Below are positions 34,113 to 50,979 of a stretch of DNA of 64,000 bases, one piece after another. Under the pieces are notes generated by a model that ran no database searches, was not told the DNA's origin, and worked only from the letters and a program-made list of their open reading frames with translations. The stretch comes from Thermococcus sp. 18S1 (GTDB lineage: Archaea; Methanobacteriota_B; Thermococci; Thermococcales; Thermococcaceae): positions 1,612,001 through 1,676,000 of the forward strand of contig NZ_SNUU01000001.1 of assembly GCF_012027645.1 (NCBI RefSeq). Reading direction: 5' to 3'. A program made the position numbers and the translations under genes. Within the stretch, counting starts at the first letter, position 1; every line of letters starts with the position of its first letter.

Positions 34113-34812
34113 TTTCTTGGTTCATGGGGGTCTTATTGCAACATGGACAATGCCACCATCGAGCACGAGGTCTGGATCGCCTTTCAATTCTCCTAGAGTC
34201 TTATTGCAACCGTAGAGAAGCTCGGCAAGCAGTACAAGCTGAAGCCGTTTCAATTCTCCCAGAGTCTTATTGCAACAGTCAATCTTTGCTTACCAGCGCC
34301 TACTCGCAGAAAACTTTCAATTCTCCCAGAGTCTTATTGCAACTCAACAATACCTGTAAAGGTCGAGTTCAGTAAAGAACTTTCAATTCTCCCAGAGTCT
34401 TATTGCAACAGGGGGTAAACGGAACCCCGGTTATCCCAGTCTATCACTTTCAATTCTCCCAGAGTCTTATTGCAACATGGAATTGGAAGTTTACGCGGTC
34501 ACTAGCTACAAAACTTTCAATTCTCCCAGAGTCTTATTGCAACTCGTGGGCGGGTGCTTTGCATCAAGCACAAGAACCGCCCTTTCAATTCTCCCAGAGT
34601 CTTATTGCAACTTCATGGTCTTGGTTCTCTTTTACCTCGTTGGACATACTTTCAATTCTCCCAGAGTCTTATTGCAACGTTGGCCGAGGTAAAAATCAAA
34701 CACGGCCCCACAGTGCTTTCAATTCTCCCAGAGTCTTATTGCAACCCCAATCGACCCAGATGCCCTCGCTGAGGTTCCGATTCTTTCAATTCTCCCAGAG
34801 TCTTATTGCAAC
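34113..34812 (-). CRISPR. CRISPR array, 10 good repeats plus one decayed terminal repeat
   Basis: On the plus strand the 30-base repeat begins CTTTCAATTC, has CTCCCAGAGT in the middle and ends CTTATTGCAAC. Copies start at 34181, 34247, 34314, 34380, 34447, 34514, 34582, 34649, 34716 and 34783. Spacers are 36-38 bases. The 34181 copy has one change (CCTAG), the 34247 copy begins with G, and a further copy at 34113-34142 keeps only its last 13 bases. Known Thermococcales crRNAs carry the tag ATTGAAAG, so transcription is from the minus strand; the decayed end is the trailer. No cas gene lies in the window. Confidence 0.97.
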
Positions 34813-44053: not shown

Positions 44054-44410
44054 ATGCCAATTGCGATCCCCATGGAGGACCTCCCACGCGAGACCCTAAA
44101 CAGAATGAGCAAGAGAGAGCTAAATAAACTCATCAAAGACCTAACACTCGACGCTGAAACCTCGGCAAGCGAAATCCTCCAGCTTTCAACTCCGAGAGAA
44201 ATAATAGAAGTCAGCGAAGGCCTTGGCGTCCCACTGGCTACAAAGGAAGAACAACTCCAGGAGATCCTTGAGATAATAGAAGAATACCGGAGGGAATACG
44301 GCCCCAAAGAAGAACTTGAAAAACTCGCCGAAACCAGCCCACACCTCAGCATAATCCTCGAAACCTGGAACCACTACGAGGAACTCCTCCACAAGGAGGG
44401 ACTCCTGTGA
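44054..44410 (+). CDS. Helical protein, antitoxin candidate for TumE-like gene
   Basis: 118 residues after GGTGAG. Composed of predicted helices, including MSKRELNKLIKDLTL, TPREIIEVSEGLGV and ILEIIEEYRREYG. No helix-turn-helix is obvious. It is coupled to the next gene by a GTGA overlap, the arrangement of toxin-antitoxin pairs. Role inferred from position. Confidence 0.65.
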   Translation: MPIAIPMEDLPRETLNRMSKRELNKLIKDLTLDAETSASEILQLSTPREIIEVSEGLGVPLATKEEQLQEILEIIEEYRREYGPKEELEKLAETSPHLSIILETWNHYEELLHKEGLL

Positions 44411-44919
44411 GCAGAATCCCCTTAGTGGTGGCCATTTTTGAGGATAGACACTCAAGAGCCCTCCCACCCCGAAACAAAGCTTTTAAGCTTCTCCTGAGCA
44501 ACGCAACCTTTCTAAAAAACATCGAACGCCGATTAGCCCGTTACGGGATAATCCAAGAGGTTACCTTTAAACCACGACCGCCCGCCACACCCGACGACAA
44601 CCTGGAGTACCAGGCCAAAATAACGTTCACAACCGGCCACGTTCTCTACATCATCGACCGCTTCATTGAACACGACTGCAATGGAAAAACCATATTCCAG
44701 CGCAAATTCTCAGCCTACCTAAGAGATACCCTCGGTCATGAACTCGTCGGATGGGACAACTTCCACGACGAACCAACCTTCCAATCCTGGCCCCTCCACA
44801 TGCACGGCAGAGGCCACACAGAACCGATACCAAGCAAAGAACAGAGCCTTCCTGAGGTAATGCAAACCGTAATAACCAAATACATAACCCCCTACATCCT
44901 CGGCGGGCACATACGCTGA
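44407..44919 (+). CDS. TumE (DUF6516)-like toxin candidate
   Basis: 170 residues from GTG 44407. The C-terminal half has HVLYIIDRFIEHDCNGKT, FSAYLRD, then WDNFHDEPTFQSWPLHMHGRG, which resembles the R-x-DN-x-PHH....fPHH-x-H core of TumE-type proteins, whose members are toxins of HTH-antitoxin modules. Here several histidines are kept and the spacing is close. The N-terminal 60 residues are longer than usual. The match is by eye. Confidence 0.55.
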   Translation: MSRIPLVVAIFEDRHSRALPPRNKAFKLLLSNATFLKNIERRLARYGIIQEVTFKPRPPATPDDNLEYQAKITFTTGHVLYIIDRFIEHDCNGKTIFQRKFSAYLRDTLGHELVGWDNFHDEPTFQSWPLHMHGRGHTEPIPSKEQSLPEVMQTVITKYITPYILGGHIR

Positions 44920-45106
44920 AGTCTGAAACTCTAAATCCGGATAATTCTTAGTATCAGGTAAAAGTCATTCCCTGCCAAATTTTTCGCAAACCTTATTTAA
45001 GGAGAAGTTCACCTTACAAAGGAAGACAACGATGGATCGGAAGCCCCATGCCAAGCACTCTTGCAAAATTAATTTAAAGTTTGAAAATCTATACAAAGTG
45101 ATAACA
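44920..45106 (+). promoter_or_regulatory. Promoter region of the nuclease module
   Basis: Two possible TATA boxes are seen: CTTATTTAAG near 44989-44998 and AATTTAAAG near 45072-45080. The first would start a transcript near 45020 and allow the ATG at 45032; the second suits the ATG at 45107. Confidence 0.45.
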
Positions 45107-46273
45107 ATGCCGTCCGACCAAACGCTTGGACAAAAGACGTATATTAATGACATCAAGACAAGAGGTAGCCTCTATGAATGGCTAGAAACCAATATGTCTC
45201 GCAGTTACAGGGAAATCCTCGAAGAGCAAAAATTAGAACCCGACCAGAACCTTGTTAAGACGTATGTTGTTGAGTCGAACATTTCACCTAAATTCCTCCA
45301 ATACATTCTCAGAGGCCTCTTTAGCTCAATTCGAGTGGTTCCCCTTGAAGATTACCAGTTATATAGAATAGATGTCGAAGATAAGGAAAAGAGACTCCAA
45401 GTCCACTTCTTCTTAGACGCTAAAGACACGAGATTCTGGAGAGTATTCACCCTCGACAAGGCACAGGATGTGGACAATACCTATAACAAGTTTGTTAATC
45501 AAATAAAATCAAGACTAGATAAACTATGGCTATCAAACAAACTTTTGGAAAAGTTTCTAGATAGTTCCTTTAAAGATACATACCTCAGGAGCATATCCAT
45601 TAAACACGATGAGACTCCCCTCAGCACTGAGGAGGAAAAGAGGGAAAACAAAGTTAGCAAGTTGAGAATTGATGGTTCGGGCGAATTAGTTAACGACCTC
45701 CTTAAGATCATTGAAGGTCATGACAAGTTCCAATACATGGTACGACTAACAAAAATTGGAATCAAACTCGTTGAGAAAGAAGACAGAGACAAGTTTGTTT
45801 TGGAGGATCTGTACTATTGGGGCAAATTTACAGTAAAAGGAACATCCTTTGATGAGCATTTAGAGTTCGTTGACAATGTCGTGCACACATACAGAGATAA
45901 CCTAAAGTATATAGAGGACTCACTCATCGATTACTCATCATTGGATTGGGAGAAAAAGATTCCACTAGTGTATGAGTTCAAAAAAGAAATCTCTGACTTG
46001 GAGCTTTTCGTAAAAGCCATTACGACACCCAAAGAACCCTTCAGGATTTGGGGCCTCGCAAAACAAGTAGAAAAGGACATGTACGTTATAATCGGAACCG
46101 ACCTCCACAATGGCGATAGTTTCTCCCTAGAAGTTACTCCCTGGTGGGCAAGATTATACTTACCAAAAGGCTCCTGCGGAAACACCGCGCTAAGACTTCT
46201 TGCAAACATCCAACAGTCGTATGATGCCAAAACTTACCTTGAGGTGCCCCAATATGGAGTCGAGATTAGATAA
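45107..46273 (+). CDS. Unknown protein, first gene of nuclease module
   Basis: 388 residues from ATG 45107 (GTGATAAC just before); an in-frame ATG at 45032 would add 25. No family is recognised. Visible stretches are KTYVVESNISPKFLQYILRG near the start, RLQVHFFLDAKDTRFWRVF, a helical charged middle, and YVIIGTDLHNGDSFSLEVTPWW near the end. No membrane segment and no NTP-binding loop. Its last 20 bases overlap the next gene, which is a PD-(D/E)XK nuclease, so the two products are made together. A target-recognition or regulatory role is possible. Confidence 0.8.
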   Translation: MPSDQTLGQKTYINDIKTRGSLYEWLETNMSRSYREILEEQKLEPDQNLVKTYVVESNISPKFLQYILRGLFSSIRVVPLEDYQLYRIDVEDKEKRLQVHFFLDAKDTRFWRVFTLDKAQDVDNTYNKFVNQIKSRLDKLWLSNKLLEKFLDSSFKDTYLRSISIKHDETPLSTEEEKRENKVSKLRIDGSGELVNDLLKIIEGHDKFQYMVRLTKIGIKLVEKEDRDKFVLEDLYYWGKFTVKGTSFDEHLEFVDNVVHTYRDNLKYIEDSLIDYSSLDWEKKIPLVYEFKKEISDLELFVKAITTPKEPFRIWGLAKQVEKDMYVIIGTDLHNGDSFSLEVTPWWARLYLPKGSCGNTALRLLANIQQSYDAKTYLEVPQYGVEIR

Positions 46274-47633
46274 ATTTCTCCAACCCAAACATGGAGGCGC
46301 CCCAATCCGCTCTCTTGAAGAGCTAACCAAATTTCAGAAAGCACACACTAAGCTAATGAATATCATCCTGAACCTTGCGACACCCATCCCCAATTTCCCT
46401 AGTCGCCTCTACAAAAAAGGATATAGGATAGTACAAGGCAGCATAGAACCGCATATCCGTTTTAAACAAACCAAACTCAATGGGAAAGGTGTAACTCCCG
46501 ATATACTCTTGCCAAATTATGAGAAGGAACACATAATCACCTTTGAATGTAAAAGCTTTCAAGCAAATCCTGAACAGCTACAAAAATACCTATATCTAGC
46601 AGAACATCCAAAATTGATACTCGACCAGGCAGTGATACCCTTCAAAGAGCTCCCCACTCACCTCAAAGTAGACGTCTCATACATCTCCCACAAGGACATA
46701 ACCAACAACGAGGTTCTCTCCAATGGAAAAGGGATTCAAATCCTCCGCATTGTGGAAGTCAATCCTCCAGATAGCTCCGATGACCCAAATAATCCTATTG
46801 TGAGAAAAATTGAGTTAGTGAAAGGGGAATATAAAAATCCTGAGTTGAATTCAGTCTTCCCAATAAAGTGGAGACTAAAAGAAAAACCCTCCTACGTGCT
46901 ATTCCCGTTTGACCCAAGCCAAGACGCTGAAATATTTCAAATTCACATCATAAACAAGCTAATTGAGTTTGCAACATTAGGGCAAGAATTCCCAACAAAA
47001 GGCATGGTTTTCAACAAAGACATCGTCATCACAAGTGGGACAACAATCAAAAAAGAAGAACTACTCGTGGAGGATCCTAAAGAGCAAGACGAAAAATGGG
47101 AACAACTACTGAACACCCTTGAAAAGATAGCTCCCGGCAAATATGAAGTAGAAAACGAGAAAATCAAAATCCTAGAAGATATCTTACTCCTAAAAGCAGG
47201 CAATGCCCTAGACGAGATGAGAGCCGAGTTAATCCTACTAATAGGACTCGACGTTGATATGAGCACTTTAACAGAACGGGAATTCAGCCCCGGAGAACTC
47301 GCGTACGAATTATACGCCTCAGGGCCATACTCAATATACCAGTTCTTCCACAGGGAATACAAAGACCTGATTCGCAAAAGAGTTGATGCTTCACTAAAAA
47401 GACTCTCAACAGGTCCATTAAAAGGATACCTCAAAAAACCACCGAAACGAGGCAAACGCAAACGTGTCTGGAGAATAAAAATCATAGATAAAAAACAGCT
47501 CTCCGCATTCAGAGACACCTGTGAGAAAGCCGCACGCGAATTAGAAAGCAAATTCAAGACGCGATACATCGACGAATACATAAAAATCTTCCTCACACCT
47601 CAAACAGACACCCAAGAAGATAAGAAGAGGTGA
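46254..47633 (+). CDS. PD-(D/E)XK nuclease domain protein
   Basis: 459 residues from ATG 46254, which has GAGGTG seven bases upstream. Near residues 85-110, GVTPDILLP and then IITFECKSF give the D...E-x-K core of the nuclease fold. The C-terminal half has helices and a basic region KPPKRGKRKRVWRIKI at about 398-413, suited to nucleic-acid binding. Domain between about 200 and 380 is unrecognised. It overlaps the upstream unknown gene and lies four bases before an HEPN-type gene. Defence function is inferred. Confidence 0.75.
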   Translation: MESRLDKFLQPKHGGAPIRSLEELTKFQKAHTKLMNIILNLATPIPNFPSRLYKKGYRIVQGSIEPHIRFKQTKLNGKGVTPDILLPNYEKEHIITFECKSFQANPEQLQKYLYLAEHPKLILDQAVIPFKELPTHLKVDVSYISHKDITNNEVLSNGKGIQILRIVEVNPPDSSDDPNNPIVRKIELVKGEYKNPELNSVFPIKWRLKEKPSYVLFPFDPSQDAEIFQIHIINKLIEFATLGQEFPTKGMVFNKDIVITSGTTIKKEELLVEDPKEQDEKWEQLLNTLEKIAPGKYEVENEKIKILEDILLLKAGNALDEMRAELILLIGLDVDMSTLTEREFSPGELAYELYASGPYSIYQFFHREYKDLIRKRVDASLKRLSTGPLKGYLKKPPKRGKRKRVWRIKIIDKKQLSAFRDTCEKAARELESKFKTRYIDEYIKIFLTPQTDTQEDKKR

Positions 47634-47637
47634 GTTA

Positions 47638-48252
47638 ATGCCCGACCAAGACAAAGGAGACGCTAAAATCATCGAACCACTGACGAAGTTCCATGAGAGG
47701 CGTTGATTGTGGAGAAACAGTTACTTAGAATGTATATTTATGAACTGCATCTCCAAGTAAGATTTGCCCAATATGCATATAATCAGATGGTAAAGAACAT
47801 CCTTTCGCCCTCTGAAGGCTCCCTTCTCAAAGTGTTCTATCATGCTCATGCGTTCCTTATCCATGTCTCAAATATCTCTAAAATACTTGAACCCAAAAAA
47901 AGAGAAAAAACGGAAAGAAATCTTAGAAGAGCTAGGTCTCTCTGAGGAAGAATTAGAACTCCACCGGGCTCTGCGCTTGAGGAATCATCTTGAGCACTAT
48001 GATGAGAGATTAGAGACTTGGTTCAAAGGATCAAAAGCTCACAACTACGCTGATATGAACATTGTGCCTAGGTCCGCTATTGTAGGAATTGACCCTAAAG
48101 ATTTCCTTAGAAATCTCGATCCTGAAACACTTCATTTCATATTTCAGGCAGAAGATTACGATCTACAGAAACTCAAAGCGGAAGTAGATTTAATCAAAGA
48201 AAGATGCGAAGCTTGGTTGGATAGAGAAGATATGAAATGGATAGCGAGGTAA
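47638..48252 (+). pseudogene. HEPN-domain RNase gene, reading frame broken twice
   Basis: ATG 47638 with GAGGTGA before it begins MPDQDKGDAKIIEPLTKFHE and stops at 47704-47706. The sense continues in a second frame from TTG 47703 (RMYIYELHLQVRFAQYAYNQ), and returns to the first frame after the A7 run at 47895-47901, where one base fewer gives PKKEKKRKEILEELGL. The last part carries RNHLEH, the R-x4-H motif of HEPN RNases. The two shifts compensate. Alternatives: TTGA re-initiation at 47703 plus slippage at A7, or sequence error. Confidence 0.65.
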
Positions 48253-48329: not shown

Positions 48330-48874
48330 TTATTCAGCACCCTCAAAACTACCGTTTATCTCCTGCTGAACAAGTGCAACTTTTTCTTCTATCTCTTTTA
48401 ATTTTGAACTTAACTCATCTAAATCTTTGAACTTTTCAATGGGCAAATTAGCGAGTTCAACAAGCTCCGGATCAATACCCTCCAAGCCTTTAGAGAAGTC
48501 TGTGTTCTCAATCTTTGTTATTATCCCTTGGAACTCCTCAAGTTCATGGACATATTTTTTTCCAACTTCCTAAGTTCTCTCTGGAGTTGCTCGAACCTCA
48601 TGTTAAATTCTCTCCAGACAAAAAGTTCTTCGGCCAAAAGCAAATATAGGTGTAACAGAATGGCTCTCTCCCGACCGAGAATTTCAATTCGGGCTTTTGT
48701 TTTGTTAATCTCATGTTTTTGAACCTCTATTTTCTCCTGAACGGTTTCGATTTCATTCCAGAGAATATTTGCAACTTCGACAGCCTTCTTTTTTATTTCT
48801 TGTAGTTCCTTGGGCTCATGGTCGTCACGAGCTTTTTTAATTCCCATTTTCTCGAGAATGCCAAGAATCTTCAT
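48330..48874 (-). pseudogene. Coiled-coil gene interrupted by a frameshift at an A7 run
   Basis: From ATG 48874 a frame of 117 residues ends at 48521, but the next frame continues to a stop at 48330-48332. Adding one A to the A7 run (plus-strand T7 at 48555-48561) joins LRKLEKK to YVHELEEFQGIITKIE and on to KLKEIEEKVALVQQEINGS, a single protein of about 181 residues. It is helical and heptad-rich throughout. The disrupted state may be real, an error, or corrected by slippage. No domain recognised. Confidence 0.6.
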
Positions 48875-48917: not shown

Positions 48918-49211
48918 TCAAACATGACAATAGATCCTCACCATCGCTTTGTCTCTAGGATTATATCCTGGCCTATTGCCCTCAAAGTGTTCGTCAGTTA
49001 CTGTTAGACCGGATATTTTGGATATCCGAAATAGTTTCCATCCGACCGGCTTGCCTGACTCGCTATATCCCCCAATCTGATATGCTCTTAAGACTTCATT
49101 TCCTGCTGTGCTTACGCCATAGCAAAAGGGTTCTACTATGCGAATACCTCCTTTGTAATAAAACTTAATAATTCTCCTTGACTGTATTGCAGAACAAATA
49201 ACGGGCTCCAT
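48918..49211 (-). CDS. Stand-alone WYL-like domain protein
   Basis: 97 residues from ATG 49211. AIQSRRIIKFYYKGG at the start, RIVEPFCYGVSTAGNEVLRAYQ in the middle and WKLFRISKISGLTVTDEHFEG fit the WYL fold with its R-x-x-x-F/Y-Y and EP-x-x-Y/G pattern. WYL domains usually follow a helix-turn-helix and sense ligands in regulators of CRISPR and phage-defence loci. Here no DNA-binding domain is attached. Confidence 0.7.
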   Translation of the reverse strand: MEPVICSAIQSRRIIKFYYKGGIRIVEPFCYGVSTAGNEVLRAYQIGGYSESGKPVGWKLFRISKISGLTVTDEHFEGNRPGYNPRDKAMVRIYCHV

Positions 49212-49377: not shown

Positions 49378-50484
49378 TTGAAACAGTCACTTAACGGTAA
49401 ACCTTATGAACATGAAGCCGAGGTAAGAAAAACCTTAATATACATCGTGGGTTCTATATTCAAAATAATGGCTCGCGATGACATCTTTCCGGATATGATT
49501 GAACGACGCCATGTGGTTCTACAGATCATCGCAAGTGCAATTTTTATGGCTATAGCAGTGAGCATTATTTCAAGTTCACTTGTAGAGATTATGAATATCG
49601 TCAATATATCACTCGGGCTTAGGATTGCCCTTTCTATCTTGATAATAGTTGGTTCAACACTATGGCTAACGAATTACTACCTAGGTGAAACTATTACTAT
49701 CGATTTTTCAATGCCTCTGTTAGTAAATAAAGACACTGGAGAGTTTTATCCACTTGATTATTTTCCTGCATTCAAAGCATTTGAAGTTAGCAAGATATTC
49801 AAACAAAAAGCATTAGCCCTGACCAATAACATCAACATTAATGATCCTAATATCCGAGACTTAATTGAATGGATTTTGTTAAGATACATCCTAGAAATAC
49901 ACTCAACAAAAATAGTGAGTCCAATAGTTGGGAGGGCATCTCCAGTCTTGTCTCCAAGTCCTATGTCCTTTGTGGACATATCTAGAGCATTTGAAGATAA
50001 TATCTTTGTAAAAGAAGCCAAAAATTATTGGCAAGATAACGAATTTCATGCCCTCATACCTACAGGAGTTGTTATAAAAAGAGGAACCCCTGAAAATAAC
50101 ACAATCAGTGCGGAGAGTGCGGTTATACTTCGGGGAAAATTATTAACTCCACTAGATTTTCTCTCAATAACTGCCACCGTTGTCGGGATCCAATTTGAAG
50201 CTCCTATGTCGTTGTTGTACTTGATCGGATGTACTCCGAGGGCTTTTGTTATTGGTGAAACCAAAATTATCTGCAAAGAGCGGGAAATTAGTGGAAAAGA
50301 AGCAGAAGAACTGATGAAATGGGCAGAAATTAGATGCATAGTGACAGTTAGATACAAAATGCGAGGATGGCTGTTTTTTCATCCAAAATTCCGAGACTGG
50401 TATCATTGGGCACAAGATTTAGTTTCACATGCAAAGACACATTTTGACTTTGAGACGTACCTTGAAGAAAGAAACAAAAGATGA
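49378..50484 (+). CDS. Two-TM membrane protein of unknown function
   Basis: 368 residues from a TTG with AGGAGG five bases upstream, a strong ribosome site that decides the start. Two hydrophobic helices lie at about 46-72 and 80-100 (VVLQIIASAIFMAIAVSII and IALSILIIVGSTLWL). The remaining 260 residues appear cytoplasmic. No family recognised. Island codon usage. Confidence 0.7.
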   Translation: MKQSLNGKPYEHEAEVRKTLIYIVGSIFKIMARDDIFPDMIERRHVVLQIIASAIFMAIAVSIISSSLVEIMNIVNISLGLRIALSILIIVGSTLWLTNYYLGETITIDFSMPLLVNKDTGEFYPLDYFPAFKAFEVSKIFKQKALALTNNININDPNIRDLIEWILLRYILEIHSTKIVSPIVGRASPVLSPSPMSFVDISRAFEDNIFVKEAKNYWQDNEFHALIPTGVVIKRGTPENNTISAESAVILRGKLLTPLDFLSITATVVGIQFEAPMSLLYLIGCTPRAFVIGETKIICKEREISGKEAEELMKWAEIRCIVTVRYKMRGWLFFHPKFRDWYHWAQDLVSHAKTHFDFETYLEERNKR

Positions 50485-50592: not shown

Positions 50593-50979
50593 CTATTTTT
50601 CTATCGGTGTCTTTGATAATAATCTCCTTGGTGTTCCCCTTCCGCCGTAGATCTCCATGAAGTACCACAACTTCAGCCCCGAGATCTTTAAGGTCCACAT
50701 TGGCCCAACGTCGAGAATCACCGCAATAACCTCATCGAAGTACTCAACGTAATCCAGAACTTGACCGACTAAACGCTGAAGCCTGCTCCTGCTCTCCGCA
50801 ATCTTGATTTCAATGCCCACAGAGTCCCCGATAGCGATGTCAATCTTTTGATCCCCAACAGGATACTGCCTCTTAACGCTACTACCAAGCCTTGCCCTCA
50901 GGAATTGGTATAATTGCTTCTCCAGGTCCTCCTCATCTCTCACAGTCTCTGGCTGGAAGTCTTCAAGAAGGTCCAACAC
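50593..50979 (-). CDS. Small PD-(D/E)XK-like nuclease protein
   Basis: 128 residues from GTG 50979; in-frame sequence without stop continues about 60 bases upstream, so the start is uncertain. EEDLEKQLYQFL supplies the first helix, KIDIAIGDSVGIEIKIAES the D...E-x-K core, and QRLVGQVLDYVEYFDEVIAVI the following helix and strand, as in Mrr/VRR-type and archaeal nuclease-like proteins. Alone on its strand. Confidence 0.7.
   Translation of the reverse strand: MLDLLEDFQPETVRDEEDLEKQLYQFLRARLGSSVKRQYPVGDQKIDIAIGDSVGIEIKIAESRSRLQRLVGQVLDYVEYFDEVIAVILDVGPMWTLKISGLKLWYFMEIYGGRGTPRRLLSKTPIEK

Follow-up and report, generated by a model that had tools for sequence, protein, structure and literature searches.

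HEPN proteins, as set out in the sections of the survey by Anantharaman et al. 2013 (PMC3710099) that bear on the domain, are helical bundles with an R-x4-H motif at the end of helix 3, a polar residue after the Arg, and a nearly invariant acidic residue in helix 1. Their genes are described there as occurring solitary, in prophages and in islands. Here we describe a HEPN-like gene in a 64,000-nucleotide stretch of DNA from Thermococcus sp. 18S1 (the window). The protein it would encode, if read through a frame break, shares the motif, the polar residue, the acidic residue (E14 in the read-through) and, in a predicted model, the helix placement and the bundle, and the motif and helix placement seen here are consistent with those sections of PMC3710099. 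It differs from the domain as described there by a beta-rich stretch and a C-terminal helix, which follow the motif in the window family.

Three further comparisons frame this locus. Against HEPN-MNT toxin-antitoxin pairs the protein has middling structural scores (Z 6.2-6.8, below the 9.0 of the best unrelated bundle), and no nucleotidyltransferase partner was recognised next to its gene. The short ORF upstream has the start and the Shine-Dalgarno sequence of thermococcal double-AbrB-like regulators, but stops after 22 aa, without either AbrB-like domain. The frame break itself resembles the GeneTack singleton frameshifted genes, in the part of PMC3711429 that deals with them: there is one homologue-backed break and no cluster sharing the site. 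We see no essential difference from that class, which spans sequencing errors and recent indels. Our account is mostly a correction, and a largely ordinary one: the locus holds one break in a gene that was likely acquired, not a three-part recoded toxin.

The HEPN-like gene and its single frame break

The preliminary description had read a HEPN gene in three segments, with the first and last in one frame and the middle in another, and the open reading frames bear out this layout. Segment 1 (47638-47706, + strand, 22 aa) terminates at TGA 47704-47706. From 47703 to 47945 a second frame stays open, with candidate starts at TTG 47703 and GTG 47709, and the frame of segment 1 re-opens downstream and runs to a stop at 48250-48252. 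The RNHLEH motif (R-x4-H) is present in the last segment, as had been reported. Reading through gives a polypeptide, P0001, of 182 aa from TTG 47703 or 180 aa from GTG 47709.

The DNA pattern RNHxEHxDER retrieved 61 stretches from a genome-contig collection and five from a viral-contig collection, and 65 loci proved to be one protein family, mostly of ~165-185 aa where whole. A further candidate, L017, was a chance pattern match in another reading and was left out. A profile scan of the viral contigs gave three loci, all on contigs already found. The closest to the window are L067 (39% over 185 columns, E 1.6e-37), of which L069 is a near copy, and L037 (42% over 156 columns), with E-values that are valid for this small locus set only.

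A profile built from 30 members, with the window excluded, matched both frames of the window gene. The first frame (47709-47945, + strand), which covers helices 1-2 of the predicted bundle and meets an early stop after 78 aa, scored 65.1 bits over profile positions 63-133. The second frame (47842-48252, + strand, counted from its first ATG), with RNHLEH at the end of predicted helix 3, scored 127.8 bits over positions 116-232, and the read-through scored 193.2 bits (best-domain scores; the E-values of such one- or two-sequence searches mean little). Because the two frames match adjacent, overlapping parts of one profile, they are neighbouring pieces of one protein. Their matches meet at 47895-47910 (+ strand), where an A7 run (47895-47901) is closely followed by an A6 run (47905-47910).

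In an alignment of 25 rows, close relatives start MEKMVLRIFQRE, MDKHVLRIFQLE or MDNYLKRVFINE opposite the window's (V)EKQLLRMYIYEL, which places the start of the HEPN-like gene at GTG 47709; segment 1 has no counterpart in the alignment. The gene (47709-48252, + strand, 180 aa if read through) has a Shine-Dalgarno-like GAGAGG, read from the sequence, at 47695-47700 (+ strand), 8 nt before the GTG. Two compensating frame changes had been proposed, one near 47701 and one at the A7 run. Comparison with homologues at the protein level confirms a break at 47895-47910 and shows none near 47701, where the junction is a boundary between two genes. The TTGA at this junction reflects a 2-nt gap separating them, and the frame common to segments 1 and 3 is a coincidence. 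Within 47895-47910, A6 and A7 are equally good places for the break.

The family runs in one frame through the lysine-rich loop encoded here by A7/A6, and homologues are continuous where the window gene breaks, as expected for a pseudogene made by an indel. A close homologue with an uninterrupted frame had been named as what would overturn the three-segment reading. We found no close one, but distant homologues (25-40%) start at the equivalent of MEKQLLRMYIYEL and pass uninterrupted through the loop.

Among the 65 loci, 52 scored clean and 13 were flagged. Four of those flagged were counted as unbroken: L054 (contig edge), L030 (divergent C-terminus), L038 (a stop apparently before the start codon) and L052 (a shift apparently beyond the core). 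Nine are damaged (L007, L008, L009, L010, L013, L019, L027, L049 and L059), although the lesion in L007 may be an edge effect, and many of the nine are draft or metagenome assemblies in which some lesions may be errors. A conserved recoding site was considered and rejected: the lesions are stops, frameshifts and missing ends at scattered places, only in L013 does the lesion fall in the same loop, where no A run is present, and no frameshift site conserved in homologues was found among the 65 loci.

A 47-row, 240-column alignment was made from P0001 and 46 rows drawn from the 65 loci, omitting damaged, cut, duplicate and some redundant rows. In it, R93, N94, H95, E97, H98, D100, E101 and R102 are invariant, partly by selection, as the loci were retrieved by a pattern covering RNHxEHxDER. 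P0001 met no confident model in Pfam, NCBIfam or PADLOC, and none of the 47 aligned members met one in these libraries or in PHROGs; RNHxEHxDER marks a widespread small-protein family outside the four model libraries scanned. The read-through used as a query found no relative in the genome-contig collection, where the pattern later found some, and tblastn against plasmids and phages gave no match. A PDB sequence search with one protein returned a single weak match (ribosomal uS15, E 0.058), and one with the profile returned none.

Two members have unusual contexts. L061 (1758-3095, - strand), from a metagenome-assembled Thermosipho genome, encodes a 446-aa protein with the HEPN-like domain at its N-terminus. 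The C-terminal part of the L065 homologue contains LSLIHISEPTRP, which we take to be a translated sequencing adapter and likely contamination.

Motif, predicted fold and the HEPN assignment

An AlphaFold2 model of the read-through, made with the 47-row alignment, is a helical bundle (pLDDT 91.8, pTM 0.88) with helices at residues 2-34, 40-62, 68-76, 87-97, 99-109 and 154-174. The RNHLEH motif occupies residues 93-98 and conforms to R-x4-6-H with a polar residue after the Arg. It lies at the end of helix 87-97, with a small beta part and a long helix after it. We counted 87-97, the fourth helix listed, as HEPN helix 3 and took 68-76 as a short connecting helix, so that in the model the motif would come at the end of helix 3 in a core of four helices.

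None of the 62 Foldseek matches to the PDB reached E <= 0.001, and the one match at this threshold in a viral library was an uncharacterised Gordonia phage protein. When 195 chains were re-aligned (Z scores from VIA), 7ae6 scored 6.8 (121 aligned, 4.1 A), 6m6u 6.5 and 5yep 6.2, with unrelated bundles scoring up to 9.0. Of these, 6m6u is MntA-HepT, 5yep is SO_3166-SO_3165 and 7ae6 is a di-AMPylated HEPN, all small helical HEPN proteins with the same kind of motif as the window protein. The HEPN label is probable, on the strength of the motif and its predicted helix placement and not of a structural match.

No adjacent MNT-type nucleotidyltransferase was evident by family match among ten window proteins scanned, eight of them gene neighbours. 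The homologous bacterial loci have no recurrent partner gene either: only two neighbour clusters occur in at least three loci (three each), in a comparison made without L009, L013, L054 and L059, where the gene could not be placed. Judged from motif and genomic settings, the most likely role of the protein, if intact, is that of a solitary HEPN RNase in conflicts with mobile elements, and by its motif the activity would probably be metal-independent.

Distribution and the low-GC island

Searches with the second-frame ORF in the other 60 of 61 genus genomes and with P0001 in the other 114 of 115 phylum genomes found no member of the family, so the gene shows no sign of conservation in its lineage; the intact relatives found all lie outside those 115 genomes. 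In a tree, the window sequence groups, on long branches, with sequences from Nitrospira, Proteobacteria and Acidobacteria in a supported set of nine. The gene lies in an island of low GC (~0.38-0.47 versus ~0.56 around it), and this, together with its absence from relatives, makes horizontal gain likely. The closest homologue, L067 (1953-2495, - strand), is carried by a phage and is flanked there by a tail-fibre-like gene on one side and a holin/amidase-like pair on the other (labels by reading). The site between tail-fibre-like and lysis-like phage genes is a usual place for cargo genes.

Upstream, the island holds an intact pair of overlapping genes. Gene A (45032-46273, + strand, 413 aa), the first of the pair, has no Pfam, PADLOC or NCBIfam match, and copies of it occur in G009 (90%) and G012 (85%). 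Gene B (46254-47633, + strand, 459 aa) has copies in the same two genomes (87% and 76%). As a unit, A-B (45032-47633) is kept in two other genus genomes with different downstream neighbours. Gene B also contains a stretch that, by reading, resembles a PD-(D/E)xK nuclease core.

Downstream, a coiled-coil-like gene (48330-48874, - strand) lies in two frames that meet at a T7 run (48555-48561), where the coding signal of its downstream frame begins. For its upstream part no homologue was found in the 114 other phylum genomes, so this second break, opposite in direction to that of the HEPN-like gene, is deduced from the layout of the ORFs and the coding signal.

The leader ORF upstream

By its sequence, segment 1 is a truncated IIEPLxKF leader: it has, cut short, the start "M..QD...IIEPLAKF" that is conserved in a thermococcal family of double-AbrB-like regulators, with GAGGTGA just upstream of its ATG. 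Positions 47638-47687 match the start of a 136-aa protein in G009 (84% over 50 bp), both halves of which we take by resemblance to be AbrB domains. The similarity of G012 to the window spans A, B and then segment 1, and ends at 47695, where the HEPN gene's own Shine-Dalgarno begins.

Among the fetched loci we listed 29 distinct ORFs with an IIEPLAKF-type start, which, as the loci were picked by similarity, is not a census. Seventeen are long (123-150 aa) and ten short (15-36 aa); of the remaining two, one is 73 aa and one is cut by the locus end. At E <= 0.1 a DNA search with 47612-47706 found matches, many of which are weak and short, in 30 of 115 genomes, and an exact pattern for the leader matched 9 of 61 genus genomes. 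The ten short ORFs (the window's 47638-47706 and those in L118, L119, L120, L121, L123, L125, L127, L096 and L115) have the start M...[IV][IV]EPLAK that is common to the full-length AbrB-like proteins, and most have a good Shine-Dalgarno. L125 and L127, from different genomes, have the ending IIEPLARLFC and the sequence downstream of it in common. Among the records listed by a literature search on Thermococcus with AbrB or leader peptides, none dealt with the IIEPLAKF start. Micro-ORFs of this recurrent thermococcal kind can be mistaken for the start of a gene.

The IIEPLAKF(H) start with its Shine-Dalgarno might conceivably be a stand-alone anchor micro-ORF, behind which unrelated cargo (here the HEPN RNase) recombines and is translated by coupling, with the A7 run as a switch that could toggle the toxic gene. 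We hold this to be improbable.

Explanations for the break

The explanation that we favour, and consider fairly probable, is a true slippage-type indel in a dispensable, acquired HEPN-like gene, which would now be a pseudogene. The gene would be solitary, horizontally acquired and part of the dispensable low-GC island, placed where the conserved A-B pair ends, immediately after the truncated AbrB-like leader ORF. Its frame would have been lost once, through an indel in the A7/A6 tract that encodes the lysine-rich loop between helices 2 and 3. Translation from GTG 47709 would then end after 78 aa, with helices 1-2 made but RNHLEH missing, so the protein should be inactive and the gene a recent pseudogene. 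The single break, the family, the start site and the unrelated origin of segment 1 are shown by the data; we infer from them that living cells carry the indel, that the gene no longer functions and that its intact product is an RNase. Inactivation was one of three options raised at the outset, and it is the best supported of them. That homologues also decay (nine of 65) counts in its favour. The island is, however, not decaying evenly, since genes A, B and 49378-50484 are intact, which counts against it.

Runs of A or T elsewhere in the genome bear on whether the break is a mutation or an error. Our sample was 864 kb (40 stretches of 20 kb, 800 kb in all, plus the 64-kb window) and contained no A/T run of at least eight. 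Of the 46 A/T7 runs outside the island, 13 sit deep within intact ORFs and are flanked on either side by coding signal, another 14 are close to the end of an ORF or have a weak signal on one flank, and 19 are in DNA with no recognisable coding; at none of the 46 was a confident frame shift seen. A stricter flank test scored nine of them as same frame, 37 as unclear and none as shifted, and for A/T6 runs outside the island the counts were 44 same, two shifted and 191 unclear. In the first 464 kb of the sample, 8 of 138 same-strand frame switches lack a start codon close to the stop. Within the island A/T7 occurs just twice (at 47895 and 48555), each time at a frame break, although both runs scored as unclear in the flank test and the native coding model scores island genes poorly. 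The difference between two of two broken runs in the island and none of 13 elsewhere (exact p ~0.01) argues against one uniform error rate. It separates the island from the genome but not mutation from error, because island genes differ in composition and selection.

We rank a sequencing or assembly error second, as possible but on the whole unlikely. In that case the A run in the living genome would differ in length, leaving the HEPN gene, and perhaps its neighbour too, intact. This would suit the one break of the gene, which falls at an A/T run of the greatest length found in the 864-kb sample, and a second break, in the adjacent gene, likewise at a run of seven. The gene is otherwise clean and keeps all family-invariant residues, which is also how an error would look. 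The portion of PMC3711429 on singletons moreover expects singleton frameshifts with BLASTP backing to stem from sequencing errors and not from genuine indels. Against an error, all 13 assessable coding A/T7 runs elsewhere are intact, and the record is one chromosome-sized contig (1,989,976 bases), rated 99.92% complete; no wave of frame breaks was seen.

Functional recoding or phase variation is distinctly improbable. Here slippage on the A tract, by the polymerase, by the ribosome or as slipped-strand mutation, would yield HEPN in some transcripts or cells and so gate a toxic RNase. The break is exactly at A7/A6, the remainder of the gene is conserved, and two consecutive genes break at runs of seven. 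There is also some precedent, in the passages of the sources that concern it: Pyrococcus replicative polymerases slip in vitro on a hairpin-bearing template (PMC4134008), and PMC5009743 records archaeal frameshifting in magnesium chelatase and in a few viruses. The site, however, is private to the window: homologues are single-frame there or damaged elsewhere, except L013, with its lesion in the same loop and no A run. Published thresholds for transcriptional slippage are ~nine A or T in many bacteria, and counterselection of A/T runs is evident at nine in a large share of bacterial genomes, according to the relevant section of PMC1088944, against seven here. Furthermore, the shift required is not of the common -1 kind, and the neighbouring gene requires the opposite direction. 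The suggestion of re-initiation plus slippage is unsupported. Should the A tract prove variable in vivo, this locus would offer a hyperthermophilic archaeon in which phase variation can be tested.

It is more improbable still that the 136-aa second-frame ORF from ATG 47842 is a functional, shortened HEPN protein. It is an open frame with the motif, but of the predicted bundle it would miss helix 1 and the greater part of helix 2, and its opening residues, as far as roughly the PKK stretch, fail to match those of the family. No homologue starting at the equivalent of ATG 47842 was seen among the 65 loci, some of which are cut by damage.

A gene in three segments, with segment 1 as the true HEPN N-terminus and re-initiation at TTGA, has almost nothing left in its favour: a good Shine-Dalgarno precedes ATG 47638 and 2 nt separate the stop from the next start, but segment 1 matches AbrB-like gene starts elsewhere and the HEPN family begins at GTG 47709, so that the family alignment refutes segment 1 as part of the protein. 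Translational coupling of the HEPN-like gene to the upstream micro-ORF, with no frame change within the HEPN gene involved, is possible.

Other features in the window

Further features were noted around the gene. A single CRISPR-DR6 match (34181-34210, - strand) scored 42.3 bits (cut-off 39), with no array reported. A short WYL-like protein (48918-49211, - strand; PADLOC WYL, E 6.3e-6) and a nuclease-like protein (50593-50979, - strand; sce7726 family, E 4.3e-5, below the cut-off) are encoded downstream of the HEPN-like gene. Upstream of the A-B pair, 44054-44919 may be a toxin-antitoxin pair, in which a small ORF precedes 44407-44919, a match to Pfam TumE (26.9 bits, cut-off 23.4).
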